From: Marinomonas alcarazii
Lineage (GTDB): Bacteria; Pseudomonadota; Gammaproteobacteria; Pseudomonadales; Marinomonadaceae
DNA: 64,000 nucleotides
Assembly (NCBI RefSeq): GCF_003208215.1
Contig: NZ_QKLW01000009.1
Location: forward strand, 1 to 64,000
Direction: 5' to 3'
Shown: piece by piece, positions 7,315-64,000 of the stretch
How the letters are laid out: each line of letters starts with the position of its first letter
Position numbering within the stretch: the stretch's first letter is position 1
Translations under genes and position numbers: made by a program
Notes under the pieces: model-generated
What the model was told of the DNA's origin: nothing
What the model saw: the letters and a program-made list of their open reading frames with translations, nothing else
Databases searched by the model: none

Positions 7315-10300
7315 TTATTCAAAGTCTTCGTGATGACGATATTTGACTCGGAATAACACAGCGTAAAAGACCGGTACAGCGATCAGTGTTAGCAAGGTCG
7401 CAAAACCTAGACCGAACGAAATTACCACGGCCATGCCTTCAAAGAACCCGTCATACAGTAATGGCACCATGCCTAGAATGGTCGTGATCGCTGCCATACA
7501 GACAGGTCGAACACGACTTACTGCAGACATAAAGATCGCTTGGTATTTTTCTGTACCTTGTTCTAGTTCGTAGTTTATTTGATCGGCTAAAACGATACCA
7601 TTTTTTATCGTCATACCCGATAAACTTAAGAACCCAAGCAAAGCCATGAAGCTGAACGCGGTATTCATCACGATCAATCCAGTAGAAACACCGATCAACG
7701 CTAAAGGTACGCAGAACCAAATCGTTAACGGCACTCGAATCGAGTTGAATAACAAAACGGTAATGATGAACATAAATAAGTAGCCCATTGGAAGCGCTTT
7801 AAATATGTTGCTTTGAGCGTCTGTACTGCTTTCGTATTCGCCACCCCATTCCATTGCATAACCTGGAGGCATAGGAATCGCTTCGATCGCTGCACGGGTG
7901 CGTCCAAAAATGGTCATTGCGTTTTCATCACCCAAAATCTTAGGGTCAGCCATCACAGTGATAGTACGTTTACGGTCACGACGTTCAATGATCGGATCTT
8001 CCCACACGGTTTCAAAGCCAGAGACCAGTGTAGAAAGGGTCACGTAAGAGCCTGACGCAGGGCTGTAAATTTGCAAATCACGAATTTGATCAATAGAAAC
8101 GCGCTCGTTTTTTGGTGCAGTGCGTACGATTGGTAGCAAATCTGTGCCTTCACGGTACAAACCGATTTGAGATCCCGTGAAGTTGGTTAATAGCACGTCG
8201 TCCAATTCTTTTTTGCTGATCCCTAAGCGTCGAGCTTGGGCATCATTAAAGATAGGGCGAAGCACTTTAACTGGTTGGCGCCAGTTATCCTTAATGTTCT
8301 CCAAACCACCATCAGCACGATAAATTTCTTTGATTTGAGCACTGATTTGGCGAAGTTTTTCAGGATCCGGACCACTTACTCGGGTTTCCAGTTTAGCGCC
8401 ACTAGCAGGCCCTAATTGTAGTCGTTGCAACTTCACATCCAGTCCTGGGTATTCTTCCTGCATTTTGTAATACAGGTCTTGCAGTAGGTCTGGAATAACG
8501 TCTGCATTTTTGGTGCGGATAATAAATTGAGCGTAACTGGAATTAGTTTGCTCCGCATTGTATGTCAGCATGAAACGCAAAGCGCCTTGCCCTGTGGTTG
8601 AGGTGACAAACTCAATACGATCATCTTTTAACAAGTCTTTTTCGATTTGTGTGACCGTATTATAAGTGCTGTCTATGTGCGTACCTTCAGGCATCTGAAT
8701 GTCCATATAGAACATAGGCGTTGTGGACGGTGGGAAAAACTCATGTTTAACATACGTCCCAAATGCCCAGCCTGAAGTAATAAGGCAACCAACCAAAGTG
8801 ATGATTGTTAGCCAGCGATAATGCATGGCTTTATCTAGCATAAATTTGTAGCCAGTGAAGATGAAGCCTTTGTATGGGTCCGCTAGTTCTGCTGCAGAGC
8901 CATCTTCGCTGTTGTTTTTTGCAACCGTTTCTTTGAAGAATAAATCACAAAAGAAAGGTGTTAGGGTAATGGCGGTGATCCAGCTTAGTAGCAAAGAAAT
9001 CAACAGTACATAAAACAATGAGCCTACGAATTCACCAGCAGAGTCTGGCGATAATCCAATCGGGGCGAACGCTGTAACGGCAATAACGGTTGCGCCGAGT
9101 AATGGCCATTTAGTTTGTTTTACTACTGCACTGGCGGCTTGCAGTTTGCTCATGCCGCGTTGCATACCAATAAGTACGCCTTCCGTCACGACAATGGCGT
9201 TATCGACGAGCATCCCCAGCGCTATGATTAACCCACCAAGGGAAATACGCTGTAGGTTGATCTCGAAATAATCCATCACGATAAAGGTGCCAAGAATGGT
9301 CAGCAGTAGAATGAGACCAATCAAAATGCCTGAGCGAATGCCCATGAACACCAATAGCACTAGAATAACGATAGCAACAGCGGCAACAAGGTTCAGTAAG
9401 AAATCGGATACGGAACGTTCAACTTCTTTTGACTGGAAGTAGATAGGCTCCATGTTTAGACCAACAGGCTGTTGGTATTCTAATTCTTCGATTCTTTTTT
9501 CTAGGTCTGCACCAACTTTTACTACGTTGACATGGGATGAGAAGGACACGCCAAGTAAAAGTGATTTCTGACCATTAAAATCCACAATATGAGTTTGCGG
9601 TTCAACATACTCTCGTTTGACCGTGGCGATATCGCGTAGACGAATTAGATTGCCATCAGTTGGTGTACCAACAATGAGGTTTTCAAGTTCTGAGATGTCT
9701 TGAAATTCACCAGTAGGGCTAATACGAATATACTCACTGCCGACTTTTACACGGCCAGCGTTAGACACACTGTTTTGGTTTGAAAGTAAGCTTTCTAGCT
9801 GGCTTGGCGCGATGCCCATATTGGCCATTTTAGAACGAGAAATTTCAATAGTGACTTGCTCGTTCTGTTCAGCAGCAACGGTTACTTTCGCTACGCCATC
9901 GACCAATACTAATTCACGTTTGATGTAATCAACGTAATTTTTAAGATCTTTGTACGGATAGCCTTCACCATTGATCGCCAGCATGACGCCGTATACATCA
10001 CCAAAGTCGTCTAGCACCATAGGGGACGCGACACCGCTTGGGAATTGGCCTTGAATATCACGAATCTTTTTACGTACTTCGTCCCAAATTTGCTTAAGCT
10101 CTTTGGCGCGATACGTATCTTTGATCGTCAATTGAACTTTTGAGTAGCCCGCTTTTGACGTTGAGGTGATTTTATCAACGTATGGCAGGTTTTGTAGTTC
10201 CGCTTCAATCGGGTAGGTGACTTCCTCTTCCACTTGTTCTGGAGAAGCACCCGGGTATTGCGTAATAATCAGCGTATCTTTGATTGTGAATTCTGGGTCT

Positions 10301-10407
10301 TCTAACTGACCAAGACTGTTAAATGCGATGATACCACCGATCAATAGGATCAGTGTGATCATCCAGCTTGTTACTTTGCGTTGAATAAAATAAGCCGCAA
10401 TATCCAT
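7315..10407 (-). CDS. RND efflux pump inner-membrane permease
   Basis: A 1030-residue proton-driven resistance-nodulation-division transporter of the AcrB/HAE1 class. The order is typical: TM1, a large periplasmic porter domain, TM2-6 (LILLLTILGTFIVMD and a charged TM4 block, LGMLVDNAIVVTEGV), a second porter domain, then TM8-12 near the C-terminus (GFLSLSGMTIKNGIVLAD). The ATG overlaps the stop of the membrane fusion protein gene (TAATG), indicating translational coupling. No outer-membrane factor gene is in the operon, so it likely borrows a TolC-like channel. Substrates cannot be read from sequence. The N-terminal MDIAAYFIQRKVTSW and overall pattern resemble VexH/MdtB-like HAE pumps rather than metal pumps. 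Confidence 0.93.
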   Translation of the reverse strand: MDIAAYFIQRKVTSWMITLILLIGGIIAFNSLGQLEDPEFTIKDTLIITQYPGASPEQVEEEVTYPIEAELQNLPYVDKITSTSKAGYSKVQLTIKDTYRAKELKQIWDEVRKKIRDIQGQFPSGVASPMVLDDFGDVYGVMLAINGEGYPYKDLKNYVDYIKRELVLVDGVAKVTVAAEQNEQVTIEISRSKMANMGIAPSQLESLLSNQNSVSNAGRVKVGSEYIRISPTGEFQDISELENLIVGTPTDGNLIRLRDIATVKREYVEPQTHIVDFNGQKSLLLGVSFSSHVNVVKVGADLEKRIEELEYQQPVGLNMEPIYFQSKEVERSVSDFLLNLVAAVAIVILVLLVFMGIRSGILIGLILLLTILGTFIVMDYFEINLQRISLGGLIIALGMLVDNAIVVTEGVLIGMQRGMSKLQAASAVVKQTKWPLLGATVIAVTAFAPIGLSPDSAGEFVGSLFYVLLISLLLSWITAITLTPFFCDLFFKETVAKNNSEDGSAAELADPYKGFIFTGYKFMLDKAMHYRWLTIITLVGCLITSGWAFGTYVKHEFFPPSTTPMFYMDIQMPEGTHIDSTYNTVTQIEKDLLKDDRIEFVTSTTGQGALRFMLTYNAEQTNSSYAQFIIRTKNADVIPDLLQDLYYKMQEEYPGLDVKLQRLQLGPASGAKLETRVSGPDPEKLRQISAQIKEIYRADGGLENIKDNWRQPVKVLRPIFNDAQARRLGISKKELDDVLLTNFTGSQIGLYREGTDLLPIVRTAPKNERVSIDQIRDLQIYSPASGSYVTLSTLVSGFETVWEDPIIERRDRKRTITVMADPKILGDENAMTIFGRTRAAIEAIPMPPGYAMEWGGEYESSTDAQSNIFKALPMGYLFMFIITVLLFNSIRVPLTIWFCVPLALIGVSTGLIVMNTAFSFMALLGFLSLSGMTIKNGIVLADQINYELEQGTEKYQAIFMSAVSRVRPVCMAAITTILGMVPLLYDGFFEGMAVVISFGLGFATLLTLIAVPVFYAVLFRVKYRHHEDFE

Positions 10408-11519
10408 TATAGGCCTCGCTCACGTGTCCAAGGGCGAACTTGCATATCTTCAGTAAGGCTGCTTACTCCAGCGGCAACCACTTGGTCACCGGCATTTAAG
10501 CCTGAAGTAATTTCAATGTTGTTGCCTTGTAATGAACCTACCGTGACGACACGTGGGCTGACTTTCTGAGTCTCTTTGTTGTACACCCAAACGGTGCTGT
10601 TAGACTCGCCTGTCTTGGTATCTTCATGGCGAATGACAGCTTCAACAGGAATAACAACGTATCTGTTCTGTCCTACTAGGCGACTCAAATCAATGTCTAC
10701 GTTTGCAGTCATGCCAGGTAATAGGGTGTGCTTTGAATCTTTATTACGAATCAGACTAAGTGACACATCATAAGCCATGGTGGTTTGGTCTGGGGTCGTA
10801 TTATGTTCTTTGTAAGTGCCTGATAGCTTTTCATCTGGTGCGACATCAACAACGACATTTGGTTGGTAATCTGATTGCGTTGATTTAATGCTGACGACCA
10901 AGCTTTCTGGAACCTGAAATTCTACGTCTAAGTCGTCTATGTTTTGAATGTGCATAATAGGCGCGGCAGCACTAATGTACTGGAAGTTTTCTGTCGCTAC
11001 AGAGGCAATAACACCTTTAAACGGTGCGTAAACTTTGGTGTATTGCAGTTTGTTTTTCGCCGATTGAAGTGCGTTGTTGGCTTGATCCAAGGTCGCTTTT
11101 GTCGAATCGTATTGAGATTGAGTCGTTGCGCCTTGACGTAATAGGTTTTGAATACGTTTGAATTGCGCTTCGGCAAGGCTTTGATTTGCTTGTGCAAGTT
11201 CGACTTCCAGTTTGAAATCTGTTGGGTCAAGTACAGCAAGAAGCTCGCCTTTTTCAACACGTTGTCCGGCAACAACATTAAGCTGCATTAACTGACCACC
11301 GACACGGAAGGCAATGTCTGCTTCTTCACTGGCTTTTAATTCTGCAGGAAAGCGACGAATATTGATGGCATTGCTTTCGGCAATAGAGATCAATTTGACT
11401 GGTCGAATAATGTCTTTTTCGACAACCACTTCATCTTCGCTTGATGAGCAGCCCGCAAGCAGAAGTGAAGCTGCTAGCGTCATACCAATAATCGTATTTA
11501 AACGTTTTTGGGAATTCAT
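10407..11519 (-). CDS. RND efflux periplasmic adaptor (membrane fusion protein)
   Basis: A 370-residue HlyD/AcrA-type adaptor linking the RND permease to an outer-membrane channel. It has a lipoprotein signal peptide with lipobox LLAGC, so it should be anchored to the inner membrane. A split lipoyl/barrel-sandwich domain (VVAGQRVEKGELLAVLDPTD and VYAPFKGVIASV) surrounds an alpha-helical hairpin rich in Gln/Ala. A beta-barrel follows, with PGMTANVDIDL. It is the first gene of the two-gene efflux operon. Confidence 0.93.
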   Translation of the reverse strand: MNSQKRLNTIIGMTLAASLLLAGCSSSEDEVVVEKDIIRPVKLISIAESNAINIRRFPAELKASEEADIAFRVGGQLMQLNVVAGQRVEKGELLAVLDPTDFKLEVELAQANQSLAEAQFKRIQNLLRQGATTQSQYDSTKATLDQANNALQSAKNKLQYTKVYAPFKGVIASVATENFQYISAAAPIMHIQNIDDLDVEFQVPESLVVSIKSTQSDYQPNVVVDVAPDEKLSGTYKEHNTTPDQTTMAYDVSLSLIRNKDSKHTLLPGMTANVDIDLSRLVGQNRYVVIPVEAVIRHEDTKTGESNSTVWVYNKETQKVSPRVVTVGSLQGNNIEITSGLNAGDQVVAAGVSSLTEDMQVRPWTRERGL

Positions 11520-11653
11520 TCATTGCTCCGTAAATATATTGGAAATAGTTAGATGAAAGTATTTTATATCTCTTGTCTTGGGATATGAACATTTAAATAT
11601 ATATTAGAGATATTACTGATAAAGAATATCTTGCTGTAATCGCCTGCATTCGC

Positions 11654-12562
11654 CTATTGCGTTTTTTCAAGTTCCGCTAAAAAAGTTTCTAAAATTAGGT
11701 TTGCACGCGCCCCTTTGCGCGTTATGGCCGAGAATTGTGTTATGTAGTGACACTCTTTTGGCAAGATGGCGCGCATGCGACCGTCTCTAATCCAATGCTC
11801 TGCAACGTGGTCAGGTAAAAAACCTATGTAGCGCCCAGTTAGAATAAGAAAGGCAATTCCTTCACGGTCGGTCGCTGTCGCACTGGCGGTGAGAGGCTGA
11901 TGTTGTGCTTTGATATCTGGAGTTTGTGCATAAGCTGGCAAGACGGCATCATATTCTTTTAATGTGCTTTTCGAAATTGAGCTGTCATCCATATTGTACA
12001 AGGGGTGCGTATCGCTGCAGTAAAGCTTAGATTCCTCTTCATACAAATGATGATAATCCAAGCCACTGAGGATTTTTAAATCTGGCACTATCCCCACGTG
12101 TAAGCGGCCATCTAATACGCCACGCTCTACATCTGTGGGTGGAATCATCCGAATATTAATCGCGACTTGTGGGCCTTTGTCTTTTAGCCCTGCTAATGCT
12201 TGTGTAATGCGTGTGTGGGGCAGGGTGACTAGGTTGTCTGTAATGCCAATGTTAAGTTCGCCTTTTAGGTGTTGATGAAGCGCATTAATATTGGTCCTAA
12301 AGTCTTCAATAGACGATAACAGCTGCAAGGTGTAATCGTAAACTTGGCTGCCTTCATTGGTCAGAGAAAAACCGGATCTTCCCCGTTGGCATAAGCGAAA
12401 GCCCAAGCGTGTTTCTAAATCTGATATTGCGATGCTGATGGCCGCTCGGCTGATATTAAGCTCAACTTCTGCAGCAGAGAAACCGCCACATTCCACCACT
12501 GTACGGTAGATGCGTAATATGCGAAGGTCGGCATCGCTGACCTGACTTTGAAATTTATTCAT
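11654..12562 (-). CDS. LysR-family regulator divergent from mmsA
   Basis: A 302-residue LysR regulator with its HTH at residues about 14-70 (RTVVECGGFSAAEVELNISRA, then AISIAISDLETRLGF) and a C-terminal effector-binding domain. It is transcribed away from mmsA with a 161-bp shared intergenic region, the classic layout for a LysR protein controlling the divergent gene. Regulation of mmsA is inferred from position only. The AT-rich stretch near 12610-12680 is where its operator would be expected. Confidence 0.88.
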   Translation of the reverse strand: MNKFQSQVSDADLRILRIYRTVVECGGFSAAEVELNISRAAISIAISDLETRLGFRLCQRGRSGFSLTNEGSQVYDYTLQLLSSIEDFRTNINALHQHLKGELNIGITDNLVTLPHTRITQALAGLKDKGPQVAINIRMIPPTDVERGVLDGRLHVGIVPDLKILSGLDYHHLYEEESKLYCSDTHPLYNMDDSSISKSTLKEYDAVLPAYAQTPDIKAQHQPLTASATATDREGIAFLILTGRYIGFLPDHVAEHWIRDGRMRAILPKECHYITQFSAITRKGARANLILETFLAELEKTQ

Positions 12563-12723
12563 CCCTTTACCTTCTGTAAGTCGTTATGAAGCTTGGTTCG
12601 TAATGCGTCAGCAACTTTGTTAACTAATAACTTAAGTAAGCGTTAATAGATTGGAGTTTTTGTAATCTATTCCCCTTGGCATAGTAGTGTCAACAGACAA
12701 CATTTTGAATTTGCGGAGCCTAC

Positions 12724-14214
12724 ATGGACATCATTGGACACTTAATCGACGGTAAACATTCACAACAAGCTGAACGTACTCAAGACGTGTTTAATCCGGC
12801 GACAGGTAAGGTCGCCAAAAAGGTCGCCATTGCTTCTCGCGAAACAGTGGAAGAAGCCATTGCAGCGGCGCAAGCGGCCTACCCAGAATGGCGAAACACT
12901 CCGCCATTAAAGCGTGCTCGAGTCATGTTCAATTACAAAATGTTGTTGGAAAAACATGCGGATAAGATTTGTGAATTAATTGGTGCCGAGCACGGAAAAA
13001 TTTGCCATGACGCTGCAGGGGAATTGCAACGTGGTATCGAAAATGTGGAATACGCGTGTGGTGCACCAGAATTGCTAAAAGGTGAATACAGCAAAAATGT
13101 CGGCCCAAATATCGATTCTTGGAGCGAATTTCAACCATTAGGTGTGGTGGCAGGCATTACGCCATTTAACTTTCCAGCCATGGTGCCTTTATGGATGTTT
13201 CCTATGGCCATTGTGTGTGGCAATACCTTTGTTTTGAAACCTTCAGAACGTGATCCAAGTACCGCGTTATTTATTGCGGACTTGTTACATGAAGCGGGCT
13301 TACCAGCTGGCGTATTTAACGTCGTTAATGGCGATAAAGTGGCGGTAGATACTCTGTTAGAAGACAAGCGAGTGAAAGCCGTAAGCTTTGTAGGTTCAAC
13401 GCCCATTGCGGAATACATTTACAGTAAAGCCAGTGCCAATGGTAAACGTTGCCAAGCTCTAGGCGGAGCAAAAAATCACGCGATTGTCATGCCTGATGCA
13501 GATATGGATAACGTGGTTAGCCAGTTACTTGGCGCGGCATTTGGTTCCTCTGGTGAGCGTTGTATGGCCTTGTCCGTTGCAGTGGCCGTTGGTAAAGCGG
13601 CAGGTGATGCTTTGGTCAGCAAAATGGCTGACGCTATGAAGCCGCTCAAAGTAGGGGAGTGTTCTGATAAAAATAATGACTTTGGCCCTGTTATAACTAA
13701 GGAGCATAAAGACAAAGTCGTTGGCTTTATTGACAGTGCAGAATCCCAAGGAGCGACTGTTGTGGTGGATGGGCGTCATCCACAGGTCGCGGGTTATGAG
13801 GATGGCTTCTTTGTTGGGGCGACATTGATTGATGGCGTGACTAAAGAGATGGAAAGCTATCAGCAAGAGATTTTTGGTCCAGTGCTTCAAGTGGTGCGTG
13901 TCGATACCATGGAAGAAGCCATGACTTTGATTAACGACCATGAATACGGCAACGGTACTTGTATTTTTACTCGCGATGGAGAAGCGGCGCGTTATTTCTC
14001 TGATCATATAGAGGTTGGCATGGTCGGCATCAATGTGCCTTTGCCCGTTCCTGTGGCCTACCATAGTTTTGGTGGTTGGAAGCGCTCTTTGTTTGGGGAT
14101 TTGCATGCCTATGGTCCAGATGCTGTGCGCTTTTACACGAAACGCAAAACAATCACTCAGCGCTGGCCTTCGGCGGGCGTTCGTGAAGGAAAGAGTTTTT
14201 CTTTTCCTTCTTAA
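12724..14214 (+). CDS. mmsA: CoA-acylating methylmalonate-semialdehyde dehydrogenase
   Basis: A 496-residue aldehyde dehydrogenase of the MmsA (IolA/MmsA) family. It oxidises (methyl)malonate semialdehyde with NAD+ and CoA to propionyl-CoA or acetyl-CoA with loss of CO2. Family marks are GVVAGITPFNFPAMVPLWMFP, the Rossmann VGSTPIAEYIY, and the catalytic Cys280 in SGERCMALSVAVAVG. The Glu-loop region reads ALGGAKNHAIVMPD, as in CoA-acylating members that lack the usual general-base Glu. It is a single gene with a GGAG site. It may serve valine, beta-alanine or DMSP-derived malonate semialdehyde catabolism, but no other pathway gene is adjacent. Confidence 0.92.
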   Translation: MDIIGHLIDGKHSQQAERTQDVFNPATGKVAKKVAIASRETVEEAIAAAQAAYPEWRNTPPLKRARVMFNYKMLLEKHADKICELIGAEHGKICHDAAGELQRGIENVEYACGAPELLKGEYSKNVGPNIDSWSEFQPLGVVAGITPFNFPAMVPLWMFPMAIVCGNTFVLKPSERDPSTALFIADLLHEAGLPAGVFNVVNGDKVAVDTLLEDKRVKAVSFVGSTPIAEYIYSKASANGKRCQALGGAKNHAIVMPDADMDNVVSQLLGAAFGSSGERCMALSVAVAVGKAAGDALVSKMADAMKPLKVGECSDKNNDFGPVITKEHKDKVVGFIDSAESQGATVVVDGRHPQVAGYEDGFFVGATLIDGVTKEMESYQQEIFGPVLQVVRVDTMEEAMTLINDHEYGNGTCIFTRDGEAARYFSDHIEVGMVGINVPLPVPVAYHSFGGWKRSLFGDLHAYGPDAVRFYTKRKTITQRWPSAGVREGKSFSFPS

Positions 14215-39282: not shown

Positions 39283-41400
39283 TTACCAGCTGTGATTTAA
39301 GGTGAGAGTGATGTCTCGGCCTGGGTTGTAGAAATCCGCTGAACCAGACCCCGCAACATATTCTTTACCAAGTAAGTTACTGATATTCATAGATAGTTGA
39401 GTGTCTTTCGTAATGTCATAGCCAAATGAAGCATCTACTATTACTGCGGATTCACTTTTCGAATCGTTGGTATTGGTGAAGTAGTAGGAGCCGATGTAAC
39501 GAGCTCCTAGACCGACAGACATGTCTTGGCGTGGGAGTGTGTAATGCCCCCAAACAGAAGCGGAATGCTTGGGTGTGTATGAGATCATTTTGCCTTCGTA
39601 GGTGTCATCTTTGGTAATTTTTGGCTCCATGTATGAGTAACCACCAGAGATGCTTAGATTAGCTGTTAACTCCGCGCGAGCTTCTAGGTCCACACCTTTT
39701 ACTTGGTTTTTACCAATGGTTTCGCGAACGATGCCGCTACTTTGGAAAGAGGCGGTTTCTACATTGCTTTTTTCAAGATCGTAAACAGCAATAGAGAACA
39801 GGGCGTTCATATTACTTGGTGAGTATTTAACACCGACCTCAGTCTGGTCGCCGCGGACAATTTTGGTACTTGTCGCTGATGGTGGAGCTACTGACTCTAC
39901 TTGGCTTATGTAGGCAGACACTTCATCGTTAAATTTATATGTAAATGCCGAGCGGAAGGTATCTTCTGAAAAGTTATTTGATGACTTTGTGCTGGTTAAA
40001 TAGTCAAACTGGTCAACATCAATTTTATCGTGACGTGCACCGAGAGTTAGGATGTATTTATCGTCTAATGCGAAGTTTTGTTGAACCAACACAGCTTTTG
40101 TTTGGAAATCGGTTTTTGTGTGGCTAGCGACTGGTAGATTAGCTGGTACACCAGTGTATACAGGATTCTTAATATTTATATCACTGATGGGAGATGTGTC
40201 GCCTCTTTTTGTGTAGCTTGAACTGGCATTTTTAGATGAGTTTTGATACTCGATACCAAATACAGTACTGCTGTCTAGGCGATCAAAACTAATGTCATAT
40301 TGCCCGAGTAAGTTGCCGTTGAACTGCTCTAACTCTGAATCTTGGGCGTAATAATCACGTCCCATAATGTTGCCAGAGGTGTTTGCAGAATACTTATTCA
40401 AATATATATAACCAAAGTTATTCTCGGCATCGCTGTAGCGTAAATTTGAAATAACTTTAAAGCCATTATCAAGCTTGTGAGTAATATTGGCGCTGATGTT
40501 GGTTCGCTCTACATCGTGAAAATTATAATCAGGTTCACCATAAAATAGGTTGCTGTCATAGTTTTTGCCAGCAGGGTAGCCGCCGCTGTTTGGTGATGAG
40601 TCGGTTTTTAGGTAGTCAACGATTAGGTTGGCTCTGGTGTTGTCATTAGGCTCCCAAGCAAGACCGCCCATGATGAATTGCGAATCGTCTTTTGAGTAAT
40701 CGTATTCTCGGTCACTGTCTTTGACCTTGCCCGTTAATCTGTAGGCTAGGGTTTTGTCTTCATCAAGTGTGTCGCCAACATCGATACCCACTTCTTTATG
40801 GTCGTTAGAGCCATAGGTGACGAAGGCGTTATTAAAGTTATAGAATTTTGGTTGTTTACTTACAAAGTTGATGGATCCACCTGGGTCAGCTGGGCCGAAT
40901 AAGGTGGAGTTCGCACCGCGGATTACCTCGACACGCTCAAAAGCATAAGCGTCTTCTCTAATGTCTCTCATGGAACCAAGAGTGAGCCCATCGCGATAGG
41001 TTGTGGCGCTAAAGCCGCGAATTTGGAAATAATCGTTTCTGTCATCTGTGCTGTAGTAACCTGTCACGGTAGCTGGTGTATATTCAAGCACTTCTTCTGT
41101 GGTACTGGCGCCACGTTGTTTGATTTCTTTTTCAGTGATGACAGAGACAGACGCCGGTGTGTCTTGAATACTGGTGGCGACTTTACCACCAACCCAAAGC
41201 TCTTTGGCCACAACAGATTCTGAGTCATCATCGGCTATAGCTTGATCATTCACCATGATAGGGGAAAGTCGAAAGGTGCCTACTTCACTTTCTGTTTCTG
41301 CATACCCGGCAATTGGTGTAAGTACGGAGTAGCAGAAAAGTGTCGCGGCAGCGCAGTGGCTTTGCTTTAATTTTAGGGGAAGAGCGCTTTTCTTGTTCAT
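39283..41400 (-). CDS. TonB-dependent siderophore receptor
   Basis: A 705-residue outer-membrane receptor for ferric siderophores (FhuA/FhuE/FoxA type, TIGR01783-like). It has a signal peptide ending near AGYAET, a plug domain (TPASVSVITEKEIKQRG, FQIRGFSATTYRDGL, VEVIRGANSTLFGPADPGG) and a 22-strand barrel ending in NPGRDITLTLNHSW with the terminal aromatic. There is no N-terminal signalling domain, so it does not drive a FecI/FecR system. A Fur-box-like site precedes it. Its neighbours form a matching ABC importer, so the ligand is probably a hydroxamate or similar siderophore taken from other organisms; no biosynthesis genes are nearby. Confidence 0.95.
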   Translation of the reverse strand: MNKKSALPLKLKQSHCAAATLFCYSVLTPIAGYAETESEVGTFRLSPIMVNDQAIADDDSESVVAKELWVGGKVATSIQDTPASVSVITEKEIKQRGASTTEEVLEYTPATVTGYYSTDDRNDYFQIRGFSATTYRDGLTLGSMRDIREDAYAFERVEVIRGANSTLFGPADPGGSINFVSKQPKFYNFNNAFVTYGSNDHKEVGIDVGDTLDEDKTLAYRLTGKVKDSDREYDYSKDDSQFIMGGLAWEPNDNTRANLIVDYLKTDSSPNSGGYPAGKNYDSNLFYGEPDYNFHDVERTNISANITHKLDNGFKVISNLRYSDAENNFGYIYLNKYSANTSGNIMGRDYYAQDSELEQFNGNLLGQYDISFDRLDSSTVFGIEYQNSSKNASSSYTKRGDTSPISDINIKNPVYTGVPANLPVASHTKTDFQTKAVLVQQNFALDDKYILTLGARHDKIDVDQFDYLTSTKSSNNFSEDTFRSAFTYKFNDEVSAYISQVESVAPPSATSTKIVRGDQTEVGVKYSPSNMNALFSIAVYDLEKSNVETASFQSSGIVRETIGKNQVKGVDLEARAELTANLSISGGYSYMEPKITKDDTYEGKMISYTPKHSASVWGHYTLPRQDMSVGLGARYIGSYYFTNTNDSKSESAVIVDASFGYDITKDTQLSMNISNLLGKEYVAGSGSADFYNPGRDITLTLNHSW

Positions 41401-56721: not shown

Positions 56722-56740
56722 GATATTGATTCTCATTTGT
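56722..56740. promoter_or_regulatory. Fur-box-like site upstream of the fecI-type gene
   Basis: GATATTGATTCTCATTTGT matches 13 of 19 positions of the Fur consensus. It lies about 55 bp upstream of the sigma factor start, as expected for iron-repressed fecI-type genes. Confidence 0.68.
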
Positions 56741-56794
56741 AGTATTTTCTCGCCTCTTAAGAATATTCTTATTTAAATGAGGTCATACGCTGTC

Positions 56795-57313
56795 ATGAAT
56801 CCTGAGCGTCAAACATCCCAACAGGTTGGTGAGCTTTATGCTGAGCATAACTCATGGCTAACGGGGTGGATTCGTAATCGCTTAGGTTGCCATGAGTTGG
56901 CGGCGGATATTGCGCAAGACACTTTTGTTCGATTGCTCAAGAAGCCAAAGTACTTCTCGAGCATGGGCGAAGCGCGCGCTTTTCTAAGTACCATTGCGAA
57001 AGGCTTATATATTGATCATTGGCGTCGTAAGCAGGTTGAGCAGGCTTGGTTGGAGTCTTTGGCACATTGCGAAGAAGAATTCGTGCCTTCTGCCGAGCAT
57101 ACGAGTGCGATGATTGAATTGCTGTGTGAGCTAGACGCTATGATTGCTAAATTGCCTAAAAAAGTAGCGAATACACTTATTCTATCCCAATTGCATGGCT
57201 TAACTTATCGCGAGATAGCAGAGCGTTTGTCTGTTTCAGAAAGAATGGTTAAGCGTTATATGGCACAGGCCATGTTGCAGTGTTTGTTATTTAAATCTGA
57301 TCGGTCTCTTTAA
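56795..57313 (+). CDS. FecI-type ECF sigma factor
   Basis: A 172-residue iron-starvation ECF sigma factor. Region 2 reads LYAEHNSWLTGWIRNRLG and ELAADIAQDTFVRLLKK; region 4 reads SQLHGLTYREIAERLSVSERMVKRYM. I chose the ATG at 56795 because FecI homologues begin near the LYAEHN block; an ATG 18 bp upstream is in frame. It is followed five bases later by fecR. It should drive expression of the downstream receptor, and possibly the protease, when the receptor binds its cargo. Confidence 0.93.
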   Translation: MNPERQTSQQVGELYAEHNSWLTGWIRNRLGCHELAADIAQDTFVRLLKKPKYFSSMGEARAFLSTIAKGLYIDHWRRKQVEQAWLESLAHCEEEFVPSAEHTSAMIELLCELDAMIAKLPKKVANTLILSQLHGLTYREIAERLSVSERMVKRYMAQAMLQCLLFKSDRSL

Positions 57314-57318
57314 CGTCT

Positions 57319-58299
57319 ATGTCATCTTCTGCTCGGTCCAATTATGCCCATTTAGAGGCCGCTTCAGAGTGGTTTGCAGTGCTGTCTGATAAACCTGTTG
57401 CAGAGGAAGATTTGCGCGCATGGCAGGCTTGGTTGAATGAAGATGAAGGGCACCGCAAAGCTTGGCAACAAGTTGAATCTGTTGGCGCAATGTTTTCTTC
57501 TTTCCAATCTACCCAGCAGTCCGCTAGTTATGTGTTAGAGCATAGCCATGCCATGAGTCGTCGTCAGTTGATGAAGGGCGTACTGGGGATAACAGGCGTT
57601 GCGGCATTAGGCTGGACTGGCTGGCAACATACGCCGATACCAAGTATGGCATCAGCGTGGATGGCCGATTTCCATACTCGGGTTGGGCAAGTTTCTCGCC
57701 ATGATTTGGAAGATGGTACTCAGGTTTGGTTAAACACCAATAGCGCTATTAATCGATCTATTGATGGGCAATACCGCAGTGTGTCGCTCGTGACAGGAGA
57801 GATGATGATACAAACTCTGCCTGCGGAAGAGGGATACGGTTTTTCTGCAGCATGTCGAGATGGTGTTGTTAATGTTGGCAAGGATCAAGCGCGCTTTTGT
57901 GTACGTCAGCTATCAGATACTGAAACGGTTCTCGCTGTGTATGAGGGGGTCGTGTCGCTTACGCCGTTAGAGTCGGATGTGGCACAAACCTTTCAGGCTG
58001 GGCAAGAAGTGACTTTTACTGCGTACTCTATGAGTAAGGCTAAGCCTGCTTCTTTGTTATATGACACTTGGCGGAATGGGTTGTTGATTGTTGAAGACAT
58101 GTCTTTAGCCGATTTTATCGCTGAGATAGACCGTTACCATTATGGCTATATCAACCTTGATTCCAGTATTGCCGATTTACAAGTTGTGGGCACCTTTCCT
58201 AATCACGACCTAGATATTGTTTTATCTATGTTGTCTAAGTCATTTCCTATTCGGGTTCAGCGTCCGCTGCCTTGGTGGGTGAGTATTTCAGCGGCTTAG
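57319..58299 (+). CDS. FecR-type anti-sigma regulator
   Basis: A 326-residue inner-membrane regulator that relays the signal from the receptor to the sigma factor. The N-terminal cytoplasmic domain (DUF4880-like) has AASEWFAVLSDKPVAEEDL, RAWQAWLNEDEGHRKAW and QQVE. A hydrophobic segment at about 94-112 (MKGVLGITGVAALGWTGW) spans the membrane. The periplasmic FecR domain contains TRVGQVSRHDLEDGTQVWLNT and a C-terminal secretin/STN-like region. Its position is the standard fecI-fecR-receptor order. Confidence 0.93.
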   Translation: MSSSARSNYAHLEAASEWFAVLSDKPVAEEDLRAWQAWLNEDEGHRKAWQQVESVGAMFSSFQSTQQSASYVLEHSHAMSRRQLMKGVLGITGVAALGWTGWQHTPIPSMASAWMADFHTRVGQVSRHDLEDGTQVWLNTNSAINRSIDGQYRSVSLVTGEMMIQTLPAEEGYGFSAACRDGVVNVGKDQARFCVRQLSDTETVLAVYEGVVSLTPLESDVAQTFQAGQEVTFTAYSMSKAKPASLLYDTWRNGLLIVEDMSLADFIAEIDRYHYGYINLDSSIADLQVVGTFPNHDLDIVLSMLSKSFPIRVQRPLPWWVSISAA

Positions 58300-58400
58300 C
58301 CTTAACGGAAATTATTTTTTAAAAAAAGCATTTTTTATGTCCCCTTTTCTTACCTATGTTCGGTAATAGTAATAAGAAGTATTATTATTACGGAGTTTTC

Positions 58401-61178
58401 ATGACCCTTTTTGATTTACCTCAGCGACGAAAAAACAGCCGCTGCGTCTTGTCATTGTTTTTTGTTAATACGTTACTTGCTGGCGGTGTTGGTATGGCGC
58501 TTACACCTACAGTGTATGCTGAGTCGATTTCGGCAGAAACCTACAGTTTTAATATTTCAGCTGGACCTCTAGCTAAAGCGATTAACGACTTTGCGGCAAT
58601 ATCTGGAGTCTATTTGGGCGGCAATGGGCAGCTGTTGCAAGGTAAAAATACGCAAGGGGTCGAAGGTAATTACTCTGCTAGACAAGCATTGGATTTGTTA
58701 TTGGCCGGTACGGGGCTTTCTTATGAAATTGGAGAAGGGCGAAGTATTGTATTAATTGATTCAAATTATATTTCTGAAGGCAGTGACGGAATAACGCTCG
58801 CGCCATTGTTGGTGCAAGGTCAGCAGAACAGAGCAGAAGTGGGCAAGCAGGTTATTAATCAAAACGAAATTGAATCGATGGCTGGCGCGAATGAAAACTT
58901 AACGGATTTGTTGAAAGGCAATGGTAGTGTCCGTTTTAGCCGCTCGTCAAGCTCTTCTGCTAATAGTGCGACGATGCGTCCCGATGAAGTGTCCATTAAT
59001 GGACAATCTCATTATCAAAATTTATTCGTCATCGATGGGATGAGTGCAAATAATGACTTAAACCCTGGAAACGCCGAAGACTCTTTTACCAATCCGATTA
59101 GTCCTACTAACTTAAGTATGCTATCTGGGAGTTCTTCTCAAAGCTTTTATGTCGACCCTAGTGCTCTTGATTCTGTTGAGGTATATGACTCAAATGTTCC
59201 TGTTGAGTTTGGTGGTTTTATGGGTGGGGTTGTGTCATCAAAGTTAAAACGTTACGACAGTGACAACTACACATCTATTAAATACGCAGTTTCAAAAGAT
59301 GAGTGGGACGAAATGCATGTTGATGAAGATTTTGAAGAGGACTATGAAGAAGGGGAATCGTATTCTGGTGAATATACACCAGAGTATCTTAAGCAGCGAT
59401 ATACAATAACTGGTGCGCAAGGATTAAGTGAAAAATTAGGCTTGACGTATACTGCTTCTAGAGCCACCTCTAATTTCGCCCAAGTGTATGATAAGCGAGT
59501 GAAAACAAAGTATTCCGATGTGAATTATGGGCATCAAGGAATAGAGTATGATGATACAGTCGATAATATTATGCTGCGCTTTGATTATCGTGCAAACAAT
59601 AACTTGAACATCGGCTCATCTATTATGTATGCGAATCGCCATCATGATGGGTTAACAAGTGCAACATTTGATTCTGCATTTATAAAATCCCATAAAGCGG
59701 TAGGAATCAATACTGATATTGAGTACAAAGCCACGAATGGACGTTTACTGACGACGCTGTCTTATAATGAGGCCAGTGACTCAATCCAGTCAGATGATTC
59801 TACTTATTCTTACCACCCTGTAGATAGGGAAAGTGGTCGTTGGCCCTATTCTGGTGGTTATGGCAATGTCAATCAGCAGCAAAATACCACTAACTTAAAG
59901 TTTGATTGGCTGCAAAATGCTTTTCAAGTTGGGCGTTTCGAGCACTCTCTTCGAACTGGGCTTGAGTTGGGTTTTATTAAGCAATTTTATCAAGTAGACG
60001 GGGATATCATTAATGAAATTTTTGCCTGCCGTGATGCGAATAATGGCTTGTGCTTGGATGCTGATAATGATGGCTCTTTAGATCGTGATGATGAATATCT
60101 AAGAAGTCGTAATATCATTTCAGATAATAAATTTCAAAAAACTTATCATTCAATCGGTATTTATTTTTCCGATACGGTGAAATATGGTGATTGGTCTTAT
60201 TATGCAGGAATCCGTGCTGATTATGATTCAACCTTAGAAAACCTAAATTTCTCACCAAGATTGACTGCTGAATGGGATGTCTTTAGTGATCAAAAAACTC
60301 GTATTAAGGCTGGTGCAAATCGGTATTATGGACGTAGCTTTTTTCAATATGAAGTTAATAATACACTTCGCTCTTGGCGGACAGCGACGACTTTTAATGA
60401 GGATGGAAGCGTAAAAACTGTCAAACAGCGAGAAGATACCTCATTTTCAGACTATGATCTGAAAACACCTTATTCTGACGAAATCTCTATTGGCGTTGTT
60501 CAGCAAATTGGCTTTTTGGATGCCAGCTTGCAGTTTGTTAATCGTGAGAGCCGAGATATCGTAACTCGCGCCGAAACAGAAGACGGGTTGGATTATTACT
60601 CTAACGAGGGGCGTAGCTCTACGGACACAGTTTCTCTGACATTATCTGCACGTAATCCTTTGGAGCTGGGTAGTACGAAAACCTACGGTAGTTTCTCTAT
60701 TAGTTATCAAGAAAGTGAAACCAACACGCTTAAATCCGCTTCGTATGAAGATCCTATATCATCTAAAGAAATTTATTATAAGGGTAGTGTTATCTATGAA
60801 TCTCAACTGCCTAAATCCGACTTTAATATTCCTTATAATGTGAACTTTGCAACTCGAACAGAGTTTCTAAATTGGCATGTTATTTGGGCGAATACCATTA
60901 ACGTGAAATCCGGCGGTACCATTGCTCAAGACACAAAAGAGAATTATGCTGGTTCAACTCGAGACTATGACATCTATGATGATCTAAAGTTTGATAAGCT
61001 GATTACCTTGGATACCTCTATTGAATGGAAACCTGAATTGTTCGAATCAGTCGAGGGGTATCTAAAAGTGTCGATCGATAATGTGTTTGATGATTACATC
61101 GATGTATCGACAAATTCAAACAATTATTCTTACACTTTAGGCCGATCGACCAGTATAGAAGTTGGCATGCGTTTTTAA
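58401..61178 (+). CDS. FecA-type TonB-dependent transducer receptor
   Basis: A 925-residue outer-membrane receptor with a signal peptide (ending near VYAES), an N-terminal STN signalling domain (about 40-115: YSFNISAGPLAKAINDFA to GRSIVLID), a plug and a large barrel ending SIEVGMRF. The STN domain allows it to signal to FecR. Unusual extracellular-looking segments include an acidic stretch (DEDFEEDYEEGES) and a Cys-flanked loop LCLDADNDGSLDRDDEY resembling a calcium-binding DxDxDG site. The plug is larger than in siderophore receptors, as in protein- or large-ligand receptors. I chose the ATG at 58401, with GGAG before it. The M16 protease gene follows. Confidence 0.92.
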   Translation: MTLFDLPQRRKNSRCVLSLFFVNTLLAGGVGMALTPTVYAESISAETYSFNISAGPLAKAINDFAAISGVYLGGNGQLLQGKNTQGVEGNYSARQALDLLLAGTGLSYEIGEGRSIVLIDSNYISEGSDGITLAPLLVQGQQNRAEVGKQVINQNEIESMAGANENLTDLLKGNGSVRFSRSSSSSANSATMRPDEVSINGQSHYQNLFVIDGMSANNDLNPGNAEDSFTNPISPTNLSMLSGSSSQSFYVDPSALDSVEVYDSNVPVEFGGFMGGVVSSKLKRYDSDNYTSIKYAVSKDEWDEMHVDEDFEEDYEEGESYSGEYTPEYLKQRYTITGAQGLSEKLGLTYTASRATSNFAQVYDKRVKTKYSDVNYGHQGIEYDDTVDNIMLRFDYRANNNLNIGSSIMYANRHHDGLTSATFDSAFIKSHKAVGINTDIEYKATNGRLLTTLSYNEASDSIQSDDSTYSYHPVDRESGRWPYSGGYGNVNQQQNTTNLKFDWLQNAFQVGRFEHSLRTGLELGFIKQFYQVDGDIINEIFACRDANNGLCLDADNDGSLDRDDEYLRSRNIISDNKFQKTYHSIGIYFSDTVKYGDWSYYAGIRADYDSTLENLNFSPRLTAEWDVFSDQKTRIKAGANRYYGRSFFQYEVNNTLRSWRTATTFNEDGSVKTVKQREDTSFSDYDLKTPYSDEISIGVVQQIGFLDASLQFVNRESRDIVTRAETEDGLDYYSNEGRSSTDTVSLTLSARNPLELGSTKTYGSFSISYQESETNTLKSASYEDPISSKEIYYKGSVIYESQLPKSDFNIPYNVNFATRTEFLNWHVIWANTINVKSGGTIAQDTKENYAGSTRDYDIYDDLKFDKLITLDTSIEWKPELFESVEGYLKVSIDNVFDDYIDVSTNSNNYSYTLGRSTSIEVGMRF

Positions 61179-61209
61179 GCCGATGATCTTCCTATTTCCT
61201 TTCTTTCTT

Positions 61210-61241
61210 ATAAACAAATGCTCTGTCGAGCATTTGTTTAT
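61210..61241 (+). other. 14-bp perfect stem-loop between receptor and protease genes
   Basis: ATAAACAAATGCTC/GAGCATTTGTTTAT with a TGTC loop, followed by GGCTGTTTTT. The T run is five bases away from the stem, so it may be a leaky terminator or an mRNA-processing or stability element that sets the receptor-to-protease ratio. Confidence 0.75.
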
Positions 61242-61276
61242 GGCTGTTTTTAAATAACTTCTTTGCGAGCTGTTTT

Positions 61277-64000
61277 ATGCTTTTTTTACAGAAATTTCTG
61301 AGTATTGCTGGAGGGATTTGTTTGCTTGCTCTTACTGCCCAAGTGCATGCAGACGACAACGCTTTACCTTGGGATAAGCGAGTAGTACACGGCGAGCTGG
61401 AAAACGGTTTTCGCTATTACCTGTTTGATTCAAGGCAAGAAGCAGATGCTCCTAAAGGTCTGACGCTCGCCAACTTGGTGGTGCTTTCTGGTGCCATTGA
61501 TGAAGAAGAAAATCAGCTGGGCGTGGCGCATATGGTGGAGCATATGGTATTTCATGAAAGTGATGGATTGCCAAGTGGTGTGCGAAAAGCGTTGACCGAT
61601 ATGGGGTTAAAGCAAGGCCGTGATTTTAATGCCATGACGAATAGTGAAAATACCCGCTATATGGTGAACTTGAAAAACACCACAGCAGAGCAGTTGAATA
61701 CTGTGTTAGGGATTTATCAGCAAATTGCTTTCCACGCCAAGATCAAAGCGTCGTCATTGGATAAAGAGCGTTTAATTATTCAAGAGGAGTGGCGTGGTAA
61801 GTTGAGTCATCGTTCTCGAGTGAATGATGAGAAAAAAGCGTTATTGCGGGTTGGTTCCTTGTATCCCGAACGTCCCGTGATTGGCACACAAGCAACCATA
61901 AAAAATACACCCGCAGATCAACTTAGAACTTTTTACCAAGATTGGTATGCCCCTAATAATATGGCGCTGGTGATTTATGGGCCTGTTGATAGTGCAGAAC
62001 TAGAGAAACAAATTAAACGTACGTTTGGTAGTGAGTCAAAAAGGAGATTACCAAAGCGGCACCCTAAAGATCCTCTTTTAGATACTGATCTTAAGATAGG
62101 TCAACTGACTGATCCTGGCAGTAAAATGAACCGAGTGGCGTTTTTGTACCGTTTCAAAAATGAGCAGTCCAACACGGATGAGAGTCGTCGTGATGGTTTG
62201 ATTGATTACATGACACGAAATTTGTTAACCGATCAAATTCGCAGACAAAGAGAGATATTGCCAGACCATGTACGTGTGTTATCCAGTACTAAAGGCTCCG
62301 TGTCGCCAAAAGTGGATATCCTGGGTTTTTCGGTAAATGTTGATGAAGGTTACCACGCGCTAGGTTTGAAAACGTTAATCCAAGAGTTAGAACGCATCAA
62401 GACGCATGGCTTTTATCAGCAAGACTTTGATCAGATTCATCAGAAAGTGCAAAGGGTCGCCGAACGTAATAAAGACGCGGCGAAAAGTCGCGGTTCTATT
62501 TGGTCGATTAAAATGGTGGATGCAGTGACTTCTAATAAAGTGCTGTACGATCCTAAAGAAAGTAATGATCGTCTGTTGCAGCTGGTAAAAACCATTTCAT
62601 TGGACGATGTGAATGCACGTTTGAGACACTGGCTATCTTCACCAGATCGCATTCTCTATACACAAGCAGTAGGCGGAAAAAATATTGATATAGGCTCAGC
62701 GGAATCTGTTGTGGCTCTTTTTGCTAAGGCCAGATCTCGCCAGCTTGGAGCGTTAGAGAAAGAAAAAACCGTGGCAATAAAAGTTCTGCCTGAGACGGCA
62801 AGCAGCGGTTCTGTATCACTTACATCAAGAAACACCGAATTGGGCGTGTCGAATTGGTCTTTGTCCAATGGTGATCAGCTTACCTTGTTAGATCCAAGTG
62901 TTTTGGCTGATCGTTATCAAATCCCAACGTTAGACAGTGATACAAAAAGTTATTTTACCGCTGTTTCAGCTGCGGGTTACAACGTAAAGCAAGGCTCAAC
63001 ATGGGCGGAGCAAATTGCGGTGCAAATGGCGAATGCCACGGGGATTTACGGTTGGACAGATGAAGAGTTTCAGCAGTGGCGTAAAGACAATAATGTGTTC
63101 TTGTCCTCTAAACAAAAAGCACAAAGTCTGGCTTATCGAGGGTCTATTGAGAATCATGGCTTAGATAAGTTGTTGGGTGCCTACAGGGTAAATCAAGTCA
63201 CGCCGAATATTGATACAGATGTGTATGACAGCATCATGGCAAGTTTGAAGCGAAACGCGAGTGTAGACGTTGTTCGTCCTATTGAAACGTTTTCTCGACG
63301 CTTGGCTCAAGCTCGCTTTGGGAAAGACCAAGCGGCTCTAGCTTTGTCTGATTTAACGCCTTTGTCGTTAGAGAAGTTAGATCAAATACGTCATAAGCAA
63401 GTCGCTTTGCCAGTGCACTACTTTATGGTTTCTCGTTTGCCTGAAAAGGAAGTGACAAACTTAGTGGCTGCGTATTTAGCGAATATTCCGCGTGACACGG
63501 CCTCGTATGATCAATCGAGTTATGACACGGCGCCTGTTGTACAGCAAGCAGGGCAGGCAATAGTCGATGTCTCCTTGAACCCAGAACCGAAAGCTGAATA
63601 TCGTCTGTATGCGTATCAATCAGTGCCTTGGTCGCCTATTGCCGCGCTGCAACTTACTTACTTAGGCGAGCGGTTAGAAGCGCAGCTAAAGCAGCGTCTA
63701 CGTAGTGAGGTTCAAGGTGTTTACAGTGTCAGAGTGGGTTTGGAACTGAATAAAGACACTGATCGCGCTGAGCTAAAAATTCAATATTCGAGCTCGCCAG
63801 CAAGATTAGATGATTTGGCCGAGATGACCAAAAGCGTGCTATCTGAATTACCAAGCATAGTGACAGAAGAGTGGGCAAAAGAAATACAGGCTGCTTTCGC
63901 AGAGGTTGAACAAAATCGTTTAGAAAAAGCGTTTGACGCTACTATGGTACATCGTCTTGAATTGAGCGAAATACTGTATGGTGATGCGCGCTATCTTGGT
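61277..64000 (+). CDS. Exported M16 (pitrilysin-family) zinc protease, right end cut off
   Basis: The frame is open from the ATG at 61277 to the window edge, at least 908 codons. An N-terminal signal peptide (LSIAGGICLLALTAQVHA) directs it to the periplasm. The zinc motif HxxEH is intact as HMVEH at residues 85-89, with the later Glu ligand in ERLIIQEEWRG (about 164-171). FNAMTNSENTRYMVNL is the usual strand after it. Length exceeds one M16 pair, so it is a full-length two-half pitrilysin like FusC or PqqL. Its place after an iron-regulated TonB receptor matches systems in which an imported iron protein is cut in the periplasm. It is partial only because the window ends. Confidence 0.92.
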   Translation, partial: MLFLQKFLSIAGGICLLALTAQVHADDNALPWDKRVVHGELENGFRYYLFDSRQEADAPKGLTLANLVVLSGAIDEEENQLGVAHMVEHMVFHESDGLPSGVRKALTDMGLKQGRDFNAMTNSENTRYMVNLKNTTAEQLNTVLGIYQQIAFHAKIKASSLDKERLIIQEEWRGKLSHRSRVNDEKKALLRVGSLYPERPVIGTQATIKNTPADQLRTFYQDWYAPNNMALVIYGPVDSAELEKQIKRTFGSESKRRLPKRHPKDPLLDTDLKIGQLTDPGSKMNRVAFLYRFKNEQSNTDESRRDGLIDYMTRNLLTDQIRRQREILPDHVRVLSSTKGSVSPKVDILGFSVNVDEGYHALGLKTLIQELERIKTHGFYQQDFDQIHQKVQRVAERNKDAAKSRGSIWSIKMVDAVTSNKVLYDPKESNDRLLQLVKTISLDDVNARLRHWLSSPDRILYTQAVGGKNIDIGSAESVVALFAKARSRQLGALEKEKTVAIKVLPETASSGSVSLTSRNTELGVSNWSLSNGDQLTLLDPSVLADRYQIPTLDSDTKSYFTAVSAAGYNVKQGSTWAEQIAVQMANATGIYGWTDEEFQQWRKDNNVFLSSKQKAQSLAYRGSIENHGLDKLLGAYRVNQVTPNIDTDVYDSIMASLKRNASVDVVRPIETFSRRLAQARFGKDQAALALSDLTPLSLEKLDQIRHKQVALPVHYFMVSRLPEKEVTNLVAAYLANIPRDTASYDQSSYDTAPVVQQAGQAIVDVSLNPEPKAEYRLYAYQSVPWSPIAALQLTYLGERLEAQLKQRLRSEVQGVYSVRVGLELNKDTDRAELKIQYSSSPARLDDLAEMTKSVLSELPSIVTEEWAKEIQAAFAEVEQNRLEKAFDATMVHRLELSEILYGDARYLG

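Follow-up and report, generated by a model that had tools for sequence, protein, structure and literature searches.

Does a TonB-dependent receptor encoded between a FecI-FecR pair and an M16 metalloprotease belong to a system that imports a protein, cleaves it and senses it at the cell surface? The question is raised by the last part of a stretch of 64,000 nucleotides (hereafter, the window) that opens contig NZ_QKLW01000009.1 (C9) of Marinomonas alcarazii, whose genome measures 3.97 Mb. From position 56777, a FecI-type sigma factor, a FecR-type anti-sigma factor, a TonB-dependent receptor bearing an STN domain and an M16 protease with a predicted signal peptide are encoded in tandem on the forward strand, an arrangement that a sequence-only reading of the window had described and with which open reading frames (ORFs) and Pfam domains agree. 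We consider it likely that this cassette is a protein-import system of the Fus/YddB-PqqL type joined to FecI-FecR cell-surface signalling. That reading had already proposed protein import and proteolysis under dedicated signalling, a proposal supported by the linkage of the genes and by the families of the receptor and the protease, while the iron-bearing protein it named as cargo stays an inference. Among Fus-type systems, ferredoxin has been shown as cargo for Pectobacterium only.

The four genes form an all-or-none unit in Marinomonas

We searched 48 other genomes of the genus and retrieved homologues of the receptor (42-90% identity) in 18 of them, and homologues of the FusC-like protease (34-86% identity) in the identical 18; with the window, this amounts to 19 cassettes. 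The order FecI-FecR-receptor-protease was the same in all 18 carrier genomes. Linkage of the receptor and the protease in relatives, the test set beforehand, holds in every one of the 18 relatives that have either gene, and FecI and FecR are present in every cassette. Such complete co-occurrence in 18 genomes, with FecI and FecR never missing and the order constant, excludes chance adjacency. The cassette is an all-or-none unit of four genes that includes those for cell-surface signalling.

Most cassettes (17 out of 19) are located downstream of the same GST gene, and 14 of these 17 are followed by the same MFS gene. In 10 genomes, the GST and MFS genes are direct neighbours, separated by approximately 75-170 bases, so that the junction is empty. 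The cassette is located elsewhere in one of these ten (G014) and also in genome G031, in both cases with all four genes. The MFS gene was considered as a further member of the cassette and rejected, since it adjoins the GST gene in the 10 genomes without a cassette at that site and, for three of the 17 cassettes located there, was not seen downstream. Two genomes carry broken cassettes, one with frameshifts in the receptor and sigma factor genes and the other with a stop codon in the receptor gene; these breaks may be assembly errors.

The extracytoplasmic function (ECF) sigma factor (56777-57313, forward strand) was assigned to the FecI type by Pfam Sigma70_r2/r4_2 and the NCBIfam FecI subfamily, and it occurs in all 19 cassettes. 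FecR (57319-58299, forward strand; Pfam DUF4880 and FecR) has one membrane segment, immediately preceded by an RR motif (SRRQLMKG), and is the only FecR of the genome above the family cut-off. The genome encodes seven plug-domain receptors. A second plug domain of a TonB-dependent receptor lies within the window at 40876-41169 on the minus strand, in a frame of 711 amino acids.

The receptor and the protease group with FusA/YddB and FusC

The receptor ORF spans 58356-61178 on the forward strand, and translation probably starts at 58401, yielding a protein of 925 amino acids; for fecI, the start is probably at 56795. These starts are placed later than those of the longest ORFs because ribosome sites stand before the corresponding ATG codons. 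Pfam STN and Plug domains, profile searches and an AlphaFold2 fold were used to classify the receptor. Its profile matches YddB with 413 bits and FusA with 322 bits, and FecA, PupB, FoxA, FemA and HasR match it through the STN domain only, with at most 53 bits. The accepted AlphaFold2 model, built with 60 sequences, has a predicted local distance difference test (pLDDT) score of 83.7 and a predicted template modelling (pTM) score of 0.79; it replaced a poor model built with 17 sequences (pLDDT 64). In fold searches, this model retrieved YddB (Foldseek E 1e-60, Z 41.3, 729 residues) and FusA (E 1e-58, Z 40.9, 749 residues), whereas the next-best receptor fold reached E 4.5e-27 with Foldseek and Z 33.2 with VIA-align. 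It superposes on 749 of the 809 residues of FusA, and the aligned length was around 730-750 residues with FusA/YddB as against around 520-590 with most siderophore receptors. Profile and predicted fold place the receptor in the FusA/YddB family, apart from the small siderophore receptors with which clustering would have told against protein import.

Three parts of the receptor are distinguished on the forward strand. The STN domain, a signalling domain of the FecA type that matches those of FecA and PupB, covers residues 41-116 (58521-58748). A candidate TonB box, APLLV (58800-58814), is identified by alignment to FusA; the FusB box, DTILV, has an Asp (PMC13253070) that is missing here. The plug and barrel (58842-61178) make up the module discussed in the next section.

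The protease gene (61277-64108, forward strand; Pfam Peptidase_M16 and M16_C) encodes 943 amino acids, of which the part from 61277 to 64000 is inside the window; the window edge at 64000 cuts the gene, and in the genome the stop codon ends at 64108. Over its whole length, the protein matches FusC of Pectobacterium with 453 bits and PqqL with 180, and the corresponding profile scores are 648 and 293. The tree places it, with a support of 1.0, in one clade with FusC and with those proteases of Acinetobacter, Pantoea and Pseudomonas that are linked to FusA-like receptors; PqqL and the genome's other M16 proteins fall outside this FusC clade. On sequence grounds, the protease belongs with FusC, rather than with M16 enzymes unrelated to FusC and PqqL. 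The intact HxxEH motif noticed earlier is HMVEH at residues 85-89, with H85, E88 and H89 unchanged across 19 homologues. FusC binds zinc and acts through H80, E83, H84 and E165 (PMC6071955). The equivalents of all four, which make up the HxxEH and distal Glu zinc site of the first domain, are kept. The N-terminus looks like a signal peptide with cleavage between MLFLQKFLSIAGGICLLALTAQVHA and DD, from which export to the periplasm is predicted.

Plug-barrel modules have been exchanged between species

The 17 aligned cassettes showed blocks of discordant identity. We compared the trees of three parts (FecI-FecR-STN, plug-barrel and protease) using the approximately unbiased (AU) test. The barrel tree was rejected by the signalling and protease data by 1782 and 2613 log units, and the barrel data rejected the signalling and protease trees by 3356 and 3320 log units. 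The signalling and protease trees were only 100 and 138 log units apart; these differences are still significant by the AU test and, therefore, smaller exchanges also occur. Of ten estimated 5' break points, nine map to residues 109-179 of the receptor, beyond the STN domain or at its end; the 3' break points were at receptor residue 848 or later, as far as the start of the protease gene. The barrel of the window shares 94% DNA identity with its counterpart in genome G042, compared with 82-83% for the GST and MFS genes. Between genomes G027 and G018, the protease is 97% identical, the signalling genes plus STN 92% and the barrel 49%, which indicates that near-identical signalling domains and proteases work with very different barrels. 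Topology tests, break points and DNA identities show that the plug-barrel has been replaced by recombination between species, while the STN domain, which stays with fecIR, and the protease remain.

Pectocin M1 enters cells via FusA (PMC5095587). Barrel replacement may serve to change the cargo type or to evade receptor-using bacteriocins and phages; either would select for exchange, and the data favour neither. We see about an even chance that a constant chassis (FecI, FecR, STN and FusC-type protease) takes interchangeable plug-barrels, each swap re-aiming a self-inducing machine for protein piracy or hiding it from bacteriocins and phages. These natural exchanges provide matched receptor pairs that share a signalling domain and a protease.

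Candidate regulatory elements of the cassette

A site resembling the Fur box (GATATTGATTCTCATTTGT; 56722-56740, forward strand) precedes fecI and matches the Fur consensus at 14 of 19 positions. It had been singled out in the sequence-only reading, and its score alone is no better than chance, as the window holds 31 sites scoring at least 13 against the consensus, compared with approximately 13 in shuffled sequences. Conservation, however, speaks for it: TTGATATTGATTCTCATTT or a near variant is retained upstream of fecI in 17 loci with diverged flanks, and a variant occurs in two divergent loci.

Between fecR and the receptor gene, a TGTCCC box (58338-58343, forward strand) is invariant in the 17 aligned loci. 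Its position and conservation suggest that it may serve as the −10 element of a promoter of the FecI type. GGAAAT was tried as the matching −35 element and rejected, as it is not conserved and, where present (the window and one relative), stands some 25 bases ahead of TGTCCC, which is too distant. A comparison of TGTC boxes upstream of FecIR-linked receptors in other genera revealed no shared pattern, and no TGTCCC box was seen upstream of the protease gene. The receptor mRNA leader contains an A+U-rich hairpin (58361-58393, forward strand; −12.5 kcal/mol), which is kept in 17 loci and abuts the ribosome site; no second exact copy was found in the genome. This hairpin may shield the 5' end of the mRNA or control translation, and together with the TGTCCC box it would fit the leader and −10 element of a receptor transcript driven by FecI.

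The gap between the receptor and protease genes holds a perfect inverted repeat of 12 bp (AAACAAATGCTC-TGTC-GAGCATTTGTTT; 61212-61239, forward strand), altered in sequence in relatives, most of which can still form the stem. It is possibly an attenuator or a processing site, and the protease gene probably shares the receptor transcript, past this repeat.

Relation to known systems and to the wider family

We surveyed the 79 loci nearest to the receptor in named genomes, which are best matches and not a random sample. FecI, FecR, STN and an M16 gene were found together in 19 of them (16 from Marinomonas, one each from Pseudomonas massiliensis and Pantoea sp. Ap-967, and one from Azonexus with a divergent protease). 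FecI-FecR without a protease was present in 21 (Achromobacter, Bordetella, Stenotrophomonas, Pseudomonas and others), a protease alone in nine, and none of FecI, FecR and the protease in 30. Outside Marinomonas, a FecIR-linked FusA-like receptor with a FusC-like protease was found in Pseudomonas massiliensis and Pantoea sp. Ap-967. The receptors of Marinobacterium, Oceanimonas and gammaproteobacterial metagenome-assembled genomes are the sister group of those of Marinomonas, and in these loci the receptor is preceded by a protein of around 370 amino acids with two CxxCH motifs. The survey therefore suggests that processing partner, signalling and barrel act as separable modules.

Two further arrangements were observed. 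In loci L101 (8629-9750), L102 (8608-9735), L106 (8778-9893) and L119 (8730-9866), the two-CxxCH protein of around 370 amino acids is encoded directly upstream of a FusA-like receptor without STN, in the place of the protease. It is similar to the cytochrome c peroxidases noted in PMC6793856. In Achromobacter (L143, 9986-18122; also L145 and L152), FecI and FecR are accompanied by three tandem FusA-like receptors, the first two with STN.

The cassette resembles the Fus system of Pectobacterium (FusA, FusB, FusC and FusD) in that it pairs a FusA-family receptor with an adjoining M16 protease that groups with FusC, has a predicted signal peptide and keeps all catalytic residues. It differs in having its own FecI, FecR and STN, in the lack of linked FusB and FusD, in a FusB box that is not kept and in the partial loss of the FusC contacts with ferredoxin. 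With YddB-PqqL of Escherichia coli it shares the receptor, whose profile and fold are closest to YddB; the protease, however, is nearer to FusC than to PqqL, and no signalling genes or STN were found at the E. coli loci. The order of sigma factor, anti-sigma factor and STN receptor, with a Fur-like site in front, is that of FecI-FecR-FecA, whereas the receptor barrel is FusA/YddB-like and not FecA-like. In fecABCDE, genes for a binding protein and ABC import follow the receptor, where the cassette has the protease gene.

A 2019 paper (PMC6793856) described import systems associated with proteases, among them a cluster of FusA homologues from Marinomonas, and the receptors of that cluster are very probably those of the cassettes studied here. 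Its main text is silent on FecI, FecR and sigma factors, while its Figure 2 or Table S1 may list the coupling. In the open-access library searched, we found no other paper that couples Fus with cell-surface signalling, nor one on swapped receptor barrels. What is new here is the invariant TGTCCC box in the gap between fecR and the receptor gene and the replacement of the plug-barrel between species with the signalling domain and the protease unreplaced; in our view, the novelty lies above all in the plug-barrel exchange.

Proposed mechanism, cargo and alternative explanations

We propose that, under low iron, Fur would leave the fecI promoter and small amounts of sigma factor, anti-sigma factor and receptor would be made. 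A small, probably iron-bearing protein would then dock in a presumably wide outer pocket of the predicted receptor fold, whereby the STN domain would be exposed to FecR and FecI would be freed. Freed FecI would fire the promoter with the TGTCCC box before the receptor gene, with read-through into the protease gene. Housekeeping TonB, proposed because neither a FusB gene nor a FusB box was found, would power the entry of the cargo into the periplasm; there, by analogy with FusC, the exported M16 clamshell protease would cleave it and release iron or a cofactor. A cargo-responsive promoter of its own would make the cargo of this cassette directly testable. The inducers of cell-surface signalling known so far are mostly siderophores, ferric citrate and haem carriers, and their range would be widened if it is true that signalling here answers to an imported protein.

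Several points weigh against this proposal. FusB and FusD are unlinked to the cassette: the sequence-only reading had seen neither before the window ends, and in the cassette neighbourhood, including the sequence past 64000, we found no FusB-like gene and no FusD ABC protein, the MFS and DUF2309/NADH-dehydrogenase-like genes standing there instead. Residues R180, R332, R796 and R798 of FusC correspond to K, T, S and R in the protease, basic at two of the four positions. The −35 part of the candidate receptor promoter shows no clear conservation. That the cargo is probably iron-bearing is deduced from the Fur-like site and from homology, and the homologous E. coli pair YddB/PqqL is reported in PMC6793856 not to support growth under iron limitation in lysogeny broth.

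Two TonB proteins are encoded on other contigs. The one ABC_membrane_2 protein of the genome was examined as a FusD candidate and rejected, being an SbmA-like membrane protein of 430 amino acids on another contig. Residues Y298, M392 and A428 of the F1 pocket of FusC correspond to R, N and L, so that none is kept; the loss of contact residues is weak evidence because Y298 and A428 also vary in closer relatives of FusC. With FusB and FusD absent and the ferredoxin contacts of FusC partly kept, plant-type ferredoxin is, therefore, not specifically supported as cargo. Judged by its sequence, the cassette lacks features of the ferredoxin Fus system in the strict sense, namely linked FusB, linked FusD, the Asp of the FusB box and some of the ferredoxin-binding residues of FusC. 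Some carriers are named after plants or algae (M. foliarum, M. aquiplantarum, M. rhizomae, M. rhodophyticola and M. colpomeniae), others are not (M. polaris and M. arctica), and to name algal or seagrass proteins as cargo would be a guess from these species names.

It is also conceivable, although we think it unlikely, that the receptor takes in a peptide or peptide-like compound (a peptide siderophore, a lasso peptide or another ribosomally synthesized and post-translationally modified peptide) that the M16 enzyme degrades for nutrition or detoxification, like the sets of FecIR, receptor and isopeptidase in lasso clusters. Lasso peptide clusters share the FecI-FecR-receptor-peptidase layout, M16 enzymes often favour peptides and the SbmA-like protein encoded elsewhere in the genome is of a family known to import peptides; the receptor and the protease, however, fall in the FusA and FusC lineages, whose studied member handles ferredoxin, and the fold alignment is longer with FusA/YddB than with most siderophore receptors. 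Moreover, no peptide-biosynthesis gene adjoins the cassette.

That the M16 enzyme has a regulatory role in the signalling chain, cleaving FecR in the periplasm instead of cleaving cargo, appears very improbable. It accompanies fecR in every cassette, and proteolysis of FecR has precedent, as E. coli RseP is reported to cut FecR (PMC8144685) and FecR-type proteins are proteolytically activated in other systems. Nevertheless, in Acinetobacter the same protease lineage adjoins FusA-type receptors where FecI and FecR are missing, and E. coli has a related protease in such a position. Most of the FusA-like receptors linked to FecIR, moreover, stand without a protease (the 21 surveyed loci). An ordinary FecIRA siderophore system beside an unconnected protease can hardly be entertained: M16 proteases are common and the genome has three further M16 genes, yet linkage refutes it, given the same 18 genomes, the same order, the joint absence and the two relocated cassettes that keep all four genes.

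Neighbouring genes

Downstream of the protease gene, the MFS gene is followed by a convergent pair named DUF2309 and NADH-dehydrogenase-like from the translations. The pair occupies positions 9497-13570 of locus L006 (65496-69569 in the frame of the window) and converges on the MFS gene, with a LysR-type gene beyond. It resembles dabA/dabB of inorganic carbon uptake.

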